Of a stretch of DNA of 64,000 nucleotides, positions 10,768 through 26,991 are shown piece by piece. The DNA lies in contig MTMB02000001.1 of NCBI GenBank assembly GCA_002011085.2, forward strand, positions 1,277,627 to 1,341,626. The letters are read 5' to 3'. The DNA is from Candidatus Geothermarchaeum rappei (lineage in GTDB: Archaea > Thermoproteota > Nitrososphaeria > Geothermarchaeales > JDFR-13). The notes beneath the pieces were generated by a model that did not search any database, was not told the DNA's origin, and saw only the letters and a list, made by a program, of their open reading frames with translations. The translations under genes were made by a program, and so were the position numbers. Positions within the stretch are counted from its first letter, which is position 1. Each line of letters starts with the position of its first letter.

Positions 10768-11190
10768 ATGAGAGCACTATATATCCATGCAAGGGAGTTT
10801 TATTATAAACCCATTGAGAAAGCGAGGATATCCAAGGTTGAAGAAGCTTCTGAACAGGGTAAGGGCTTCGAAAACCTCCTCGTAGTATACGTAACAATTG
10901 AGAAAGGAGATTTTGAGAGGAGGAGAGAGATATTGGATAAGATGCTGGGGGATATAAAGACGCAGCTTGAGAGGCTGAATCTAAATAGGCTGGTTATATA
11001 TCCATATGCTCATCTGTCAGACAACCTTGAGGAGCCTGTAAAGGCCGTTAGGTTGTTGAAGCTGCTGGATAAGAAGATAAAGTCGGGGCTAAGCGGGGTT
11101 GAATATGATAGGGCGCCCTTCGGATGGTACAAGGAGTTCAGAATACATTGTCCAGGACATCCCTTATCAGAATTGTCTAGGAGCTTCTAA
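10768..11190 (+). CDS. stand-alone threonyl-tRNA synthetase editing domain
   Basis: 140 aa, corresponding to the archaeal ThrRS N-terminal editing domain (D-Tyr-tRNA deacylase-like fold), which hydrolyses Ser-tRNA-Thr. It begins MRALYIHAREFYYKP and ends at the conserved CPGHPLSELSR that closes this domain in full-length archaeal ThrRS. There is no catalytic class II core and no anticodon-binding domain, unlike the ThrRS-ed proteins known from some crenarchaea, which keep the anticodon-binding domain. It may work in trans with a separate ThrRS-cat, or be a truncated remnant: a tRNA fragment lies 13 bp after the stop. ATG 10768 is preferred over GTG 10759, with GGTGG just upstream. Confidence 0.75.
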   Translation: MRALYIHAREFYYKPIEKARISKVEEASEQGKGFENLLVVYVTIEKGDFERRREILDKMLGDIKTQLERLNLNRLVIYPYAHLSDNLEEPVKAVRLLKLLDKKIKSGLSGVEYDRAPFGWYKEFRIHCPGHPLSELSRSF

Positions 11191-11203
11191 AATTATTTGA
11201 ATC

Positions 11204-11251
11204 GGACCCACAGGGATTCGAACCCGGGGATATTCCGGCTTAGAAGCCCCT
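11204..11251 (-). pseudogene. tRNA-Arg-like 3' fragment (remnant)
   Basis: On the minus strand this reads CTTCTAAGCCGG, then CCGGG-TTCGAAT-CCCTG, then TGGGTCC. That is an anticodon-loop-like stretch, a T-arm and a 3' acceptor strand resembling the intact tRNA-Arg(TCT) about 240 bp away. No 5' half with a matching acceptor (GGACCCA) or D-arm is visible nearby, and the anticodon stem does not pair. I read it as a decayed duplicate or an old integration scar. Confidence 0.5.
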
Positions 11252-11293
11252 ATATTTAATAAGGGTTGTCTCCTGATCCTCTCATGCTTTGAG

Positions 11294-11470
11294 ATGTTTT
11301 TACAAGTCTCCGATAACCTGAATTATTCGAATATGAAACAGGCAACTGAAGAACGGTATGAGGAAGAACCTAATCCGATTCAACAATACCACATCTGGCT
11401 ATTAATAACGATATCATTAACGATCCCAATAATATTAACAAGTTTAGAAATCAGAAATAGACGTATTTAA
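11294..11470 (+). CDS. possible 58-aa single-pass membrane miniprotein
   Basis: Below the ORF-track size limit. ATG 11294 (or ATG 11333, 45 aa) to TAA 11470. The C-terminal half is hydrophobic (HIWLLITISLTIPIILTSL) and is followed by a basic tail, so it looks like a small tail-anchored protein. No family is recognised and no clear Shine-Dalgarno is seen. The stretch 11191-11493 otherwise holds only the tRNA fragment. It may be spurious. Confidence 0.25.
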   Translation: MFLQVSDNLNYSNMKQATEERYEEEPNPIQQYHIWLLITISLTIPIILTSLEIRNRRI

Positions 11471-11492
11471 CGGAAGCTTTAAAGGTAAGAAA

Positions 11493-11580
<88 letters not shown>

Positions 11581-26687: not shown

Positions 26688-26764
26688 GGAGGGTGAGGGT
26701 TCAGAGGGACTACCGGTGAATCATCCTGGAACATCATTATTGCTCCAGGTCATCATCACCCTCC
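26688..26764 (-). ncRNA. candidate structured RNA, possibly a box C/D sRNA
   Basis: An intergenic element with a perfect 9-bp terminal stem (GGAGGGTGA/TCACCCTCC) and an inner 6-bp hairpin (CCTGGA/TCCAGG). Read on the minus strand it has a box C-like ATGATGA after the 5' stem and a box D CTGA before an ACCCTC 3' stem. That suits a k-turn, but no good D' box is seen and it is longer than most archaeal C/D sRNAs. The flanks 26572-26687 and 26765-26822 are AT-rich with no gene. Confidence 0.35.
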
Positions 26765-26822: not shown

Positions 26823-26832
26823 CTTTATAAAA
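26823..26832 (+). promoter_or_regulatory. TATA box for tRNA-Met
   Basis: CTTTATAAAA preceded by an A-rich BRE-like run, about 40 nt before the tRNA 5' end. Confidence 0.45.
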
Positions 26833-26866
26833 ACAGTGGCTAACATAATTAATACTAGATTATAAA

Positions 26867-26991
26867 GCCGGGGTAGCTCAGCGGCGGAGCAGGAGGAGCC
26901 TCCTCCGAGGCCGGACTCATAGGGCCGCCCTGAGATATCCGGAGTAGGCAGATGCCTACGGAAGTCGCGGGTTCGAATCCCGCCCCCGGCA
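26867..26991 (+). tRNA. elongator tRNA-Met (CAT) with three candidate introns
   Basis: Acceptor GCCGGGG/CCCCGGC, discriminator A, D-arm GCTC-AGCGGCG-GAGC, T-arm GCGGG-TTCGAAT-CCCGC, no encoded CCA. Anticodon arm exons are CCGGA-CTCATA and A-TCCGG. Intron 2 (26922-26936, 15 nt) is at the canonical 37/38 site with an ideal bulge-helix-bulge (CTCA/TGAG helix, bulges TAG and ATA). Intron 1 (about 26891-26910, 17-19 nt) follows the D-arm and also folds as a bulge-helix-bulge (GGAG/CTCC). Intron 3 (about 26945-26963, 19 nt) is in the variable loop with a GTAGGC/GCCTAC stem. Splicing gives a 72-74 nt tRNA matching archaeal elongator tRNA-Met. Confidence 0.88.

Follow-up and report, generated by a model that had tools for sequence, protein, structure and literature searches.

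A probable three-intron elongator tRNA-Met gene in an archaeon of the Candidatus Geothermarchaeota family

Introduction

It is established that archaeal tRNA genes can carry up to three introns each (PMC8450103, PMC4090602). The tRNA-Pro(UGG) gene of Pyrobaculum islandicum, a member of Thermoproteales, is interrupted at positions 25/26, 37/38, and 56/57 (PMC4090602). In Caldiarchaeum subterraneum, tRNA-Thr(GGU) has introns at 24/25 and 45/46, and 13 of the 45 tRNA genes contain introns (PMC3293823). Introns are found in 92–95% of the tRNA genes of the Asgard Atabeyarchaeia and Freyarchaeia (PMC11291895), and three occur in the nucleomorph-encoded elongator tRNA-Met of Guillardia theta (PMC4090602).

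Here, we describe a tRNA gene at 26867–26991 on the plus strand of a 64,000-nucleotide stretch of archaeal DNA (the window). It is very probably a single elongator tRNA-Met(CAU) (eMet) gene with three introns, located at 25/26, at 37/38, and in the variable loop (~45/46), from an uncultivated archaeon of the Candidatus Geothermarchaeota family. The gene resembles P. islandicum tRNA-Pro(UGG) in having three introns of the bulge-helix-bulge (BHB) type, two of them at common positions (25/26 and 37/38), but the isotype and lineage differ, and the third intron lies in the T-arm there and in the variable loop here. D-arm and variable-loop introns within one gene and an intron-rich tRNA set are shared with C. 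subterraneum, whose tRNA-Thr(GGU) has two introns instead of three and differs in isotype and lineage. The Asgard sets are likewise non-Thermoproteales and have non-canonical positions, often with several introns per gene; that lineage is distant, and its share of interrupted genes is higher than the roughly 22 of 46 here (PMC11291895). The G. theta gene has the same isotype, but it is eukaryotic with very short non-canonical insertions (PMC4090602), and its three introns presumably originated independently of this archaeal gene. The gene is ordinary in kind, and what is new is the host and the combination of isotype and positions. A literature search that missed most subscription papers turned up no earlier work on the tRNA introns of Geothermarchaeota.

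Results

The region 26867–26991 (G000:C1:1304493–1304617 in genome coordinates; GCCGGGG...CCCCGGCA) matched the tRNA family RF00005 end to end when the local stretch was searched with cmscan (Infernal/Rfam), scoring 42.1 bits (E = 1.8e-7) against a gathering score of 29. The same gene was not in the table when the whole window was searched at the gathering threshold, probably owing to the speed filters, and ARAGORN listed no tRNA at 26867–26991. To parse the gene, we exhaustively enumerated the ways of excising one to three blocks from the region bounded by the D-stem and the T-arm. No one-intron parse was acceptable, and the two-intron parses were nonsensical, with wrong arms and a best score of 27.0. 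Removal of three blocks gave a complete class I cloverleaf with a score of 31.5. The earlier note on this DNA had described an elongator tRNA-Met gene with three interruptions of about 17–19, 15, and 19 nt. Its coordinates, strand, and isotype were right, and so was the number of interruptions, with the third read as an intron by comparison and its register uncertain by 1–2 nt; the sizes are 19, 15, and ~19 nt.

The best parse by cloverleaf score and BHB pairing combined removes 26891–26909, 26922–26936, and 26945–26963, all within one cis-encoded gene. Exon 1 (26867–26890) provides the 5′ strand of the acceptor stem and the D-arm (mature positions 1–25), and exon 2 (26910–26921) provides base 26, the 5′ strand of the anticodon stem, the anticodon CAT, and A37. 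A38, the 3′ strand of the anticodon stem, and the first variable-loop bases come from exon 3 (26937–26944); the rest of the variable loop, the T-arm, the 3′ strand of the acceptor stem, and A73 come from exon 4 (26964–26991), and CCA is not encoded. The mature product is a 72-nt tRNA, GCCGGGGTAGCTCAGCGGCGGAGCGCCGGACTCATAATCCGGAGGTCGCGGGTTCGAATCCCGCCCCCGGCA, for which the cloverleaf is the minimum free energy (MFE) structure if intron 3 is cut in one register and at most ~1 kcal/mol above the MFE if it is cut in another. Elongator identity follows from the CAU-anticodon cloverleaf and the eMet acceptor and T-arm sequence, which match the eMet genes of relatives. The 7-nt D-loop, which had left the exact mature sequence in doubt, is real: the differently interrupted gene of the relative G010 yields the same mature D-arm and anticodon-arm sequence. 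A TATA-box-like sequence, CTTTATAAAAA (26823–26833, plus strand), ~34 nt before the gene, may serve as its promoter element.

Intron 1 (26891–26909, 19 nt) is cut between C25 and G26. CGGA (26885–26888) before the 5′ bulge pairs with TCCG (26904–26907) before the 3′ bulge in four of four positions, which is equaled by 0.6% of intron shuffles (p = 0.006), and the motif is completed on the outside by CGG:CCG pairing and on the inside by GGAG:CTCC. The BHB motif previously proposed for this block stands, but the GGAG/CTCC pairing assigned to it is the inner helix (26892–26895:26900–26903), and the helix at the canonical cutting distance is CGGA:TCCG. An intron occupies the same 25/26 site in G008 and G010, relatives from two other genera; the central helix is CGGA:TCCG here and in G010 and AGGA:TCCT in G008, a compensatory change. 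In G009 and G011, the D-arm of eMet is interrupted at a different site. Intron 2 (26922–26936, 15 nt) occupies the canonical site 37/38, with CTCA (26916–26919) and TGAG (26931–26934) pairing at the canonical distance, just as first noted (four of four pairs, shuffle p = 0.011), and an insertion at 37/38 is present in all seven relatives' eMet genes that were read. Both introns have a 4-bp central helix with the cuts in 3-nt bulges. Motif and comparison together show introns 1 and 2, at the level of sequence, to be BHB-type tRNA introns.

Intron 3 (26945–26963, ~19 nt) is less certain. The variable-loop block is absent from the eMet genes of all seven relatives read (G004, G006, G007, G008, G009, G010, and G011), where the variable loop is AGGTC, AAGTC, or AGGCC. 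In the register that leaves AGGTC, the motif is relaxed, with CCGG against ACGG forming three of four pairs (shuffle p = 0.11). The block has an inner hairpin at 26945–26949:26954–26958. Starts from 26940 to 26945 and 20- or 21-nt registers are possible; because CGGA stands on both sides, starts at 26940–26944 give AAGTC and a start at 26945 gives AGGTC. The strongest argument for block 3 as an intron comes by analogy from tRNA-Ile2(CAT) of the same genome, in which 22 nt are inserted in the variable loop, flanked by CCCGG and GGGTC; the motif there is just as relaxed (three of four pairs). This block is present in the same-genus genome G003 and missing from the otherwise identical genes of G004, G005, G007, and G009; therefore, variable-loop insertions are real in this genus. 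No eMet gene was found in G003, which is 75% complete, so the closest eMet comparison is missing. The intron nature and exact ends of block 3 are best regarded as predicted.

The nearest S19e proteins (79–82% identity) belong to Candidatus Geothermarchaeota MAGs and one Nitrososphaeria MAG; the correspondence of their eMet locations identifies these as G009, G010, and G011, genomes of the same family. These relatives place the host elsewhere than in Thermoproteales, the order in which, together with its relatives, multi-intron and non-canonical tRNA genes had been said to occur mainly; comparable genes have also been published outside that order (PMC3293823, PMC11291895). Within the family, the number of eMet introns rises from one (genus g3) through two (g4 and g5) to three here. 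Across the class, eMet loci were found with a sequence pattern that misses genes with other T-arms, so that numbers from outside the family are incomplete; among the genes read in this way, introns occur at other positions in other families (beside bases 9/10 and within the anticodon stem), and a variable-loop block occurs only in the present gene. A covariance model of the mature eMet was insufficiently specific for the class-wide search. In five genomes of genus g28 (L169–L173), eMet is interrupted twice, by an intron of ~30–60 nt beside bases 9/10 and by a second one within the anticodon stem. A further multi-intron Met tRNA in the family may be the initiator tRNA-Met of genome G002 (L239), with a variable-loop block and an apparent T-arm block.

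The eMet 3′-half pattern, with up to three mismatches allowed, matched only once in the genome (89% complete), and the second intact eMet gene that could have contradicted the earlier note was not found. The other CAT genes, an initiator tRNA-Met (L011) and tRNA-Ile2 (L019), are both separate, and the Ile2-modifying enzyme TiaS is encoded. By our own reading, the genome has 46 tRNA genes with distinct anticodons except for the three CAT genes; about 22 of them contain ~26 introns in total (visual inspection for the class II and Cys genes), several at 25/26, and eMet is the only one with three. Intron transposition between tRNAs of this genome was considered for seven introns (21 pairs tested): the only clear resemblance is between the two tRNA-Glu introns (p = 0.003), and eMet intron 1 has a marginal likeness to the Lys intron (p = 0.017).

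The genome encodes two tRNA_int_endo proteins and RtcB. Along its length, the alpha subunit can be aligned to EndA of Aeropyrum pernix (3p1z chain B; E = 2.5e-48), and it keeps the catalytic Tyr, His, and Lys; its Lys41 aligns with A. pernix Lys44 of the Crenarchaea-specific loop, a conserved lysine required to cut relaxed motifs (PMC6379350). The second protein, a diverged paralogue, fits the role of beta subunit. Two different subunits, the catalytic triad, and the loop lysine are the sequence traits of an (alpha-beta)2 endonuclease of broad specificity, and they support the earlier expectation of such an enzyme, whose assembly and activity are predicted from these features (PMC6379350).

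Discussion

We favor a gene whose transcript would be expressed and spliced at all three sites. In the folded 125-nt transcript, every intron-exon junction would adopt a BHB or relaxed motif; the alpha-beta endonuclease would cut both bulges of each motif, and RtcB would join the exons into the 72-nt class I tRNA. An ordered removal of the introns had also been suggested. Folding energies indicate no strong order and lend it no support: forcing BHB1, BHB2, and BHB3 in the full precursor costs 3.2, 1.7, and 0.3 kcal/mol relative to the MFE, and the costs are similarly small in the partly spliced forms (0.3–3.2 kcal/mol overall), so that any motif can be forced at ≤~3 kcal/mol in each intermediate. 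The 5′ strand of the anticodon stem, CGGA, is duplicated within intron 3, and the 4-bp form of BHB3 uses the anticodon-stem TCCG, which is also the outer helix of BHB2; because both need it, this form and BHB2 cannot coexist. That BHB3 and the anticodon stem compete for TCCG, making the two splicing substrates mutually exclusive at any one time and passing the precursor through a conformational switch, is unlikely.

Other readings of the gene concern mostly block 3. The block might be kept as a class II-like long variable arm with only introns 1 and 2 spliced, as its BHB motif is weak and its 6-bp hairpin leaves a product that retains the cloverleaf fold and gains a stable extra arm (−47.1 kcal/mol). 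However, the variable loop is 5 nt in all seven relatives' eMet genes, the same genome's tRNA-Ile2 has a comparable insertion that the otherwise identical genes of relatives lack, and we know of no archaeal eMet with a long variable arm; we consider this reading distinctly improbable. Very doubtful, too, is a third intron in a 21-nt register (26944–26964) set by TCCG:CGGA (26938–26941:26959–26962). Only this register offers a perfect helix, with four of four pairs, 3-nt bulges on both sides, and a shuffle p of 0.03, but G46 would be lost, and the variable loop of the resulting 70-nt tRNA would be cut to 3 nt, a length below that of every relative read. Moreover, the equivalent strict register in tRNA-Ile2 fails to restore the relatives' sequence, whereas the relaxed three-of-four register does.

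That 26867–26991 is a degenerate or silent copy, with another gene supplying elongator tRNA-Met, can be given hardly any weight. The genome is scored incomplete, as stated above, and the match of the unspliced gene to the tRNA model is poor, but every stem is intact after splicing, the single contig holds no other eMet, a TATA-like box lies upstream, and the eMet genes of relatives are interrupted as well. The reading with three introns, the third at 26945–26963 or within 1–2 nt of it, is therefore preferred.

With this gene, three-intron tRNA genes now reach the Geothermarchaeota family, on an indispensable tRNA for which no second copy was found. The graded series of one, two, and three introns in the same gene makes intron gain traceable in one orthologous tRNA. 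The principle is already known from several archaeal groups, to which the gene adds a clean further example, and that ARAGORN missed it entirely is a practical warning.

The 37/38 introns of the eMet genes of G004, G006, and G007 (L087, L088, and L089) hold TTATGAG, two further nucleotides, and CTGA, followed by GATGATG; ATGA replaces CTGA in those of G004 and G007 (L087 and L089). By eye, the TTATGAG...GATGATG blocks are common to introns that have otherwise diverged. These introns look like a box C/D antisense element in which the fifth base before the D′-like box faces C34 of the same tRNA, and an intron-encoded guide for Cm34 of elongator tRNA-Met is possible on the basis of this likeness, similar to the known guide in the tRNA-Trp intron. 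When the genome with the three-intron gene was searched for a guide acting in trans on C34, the matches were at chance level. Just upstream of the tRNA gene in the window, on the minus strand at 26696–26762, lies a candidate C/D-box-like small RNA (GTGATGA...CTGA), whose matches to Rfam C/D families all fall short of the cut-offs.

Several other tRNA loci were observed. L035 (G000:C1:339214–339324) is a probable tRNA-Cys(GCA) with U73 and an intron of ~38 nt at 37/38, and it is easily taken for a Ser-like class II gene. A tRNA-Arg(TCT) gene with a 12-nt D-loop insert lies at 11174–11334 of the window on the minus strand; ~280 bp from it, at ~11480–11580 on the same strand, is a degenerate 3′ half resembling that of tRNA-Arg(TCT), which may be an integration scar. 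An isolated tRNA-Glu 3′ end in the same-genus genome G003 (L207, G003:C66) may likewise be an integration scar.
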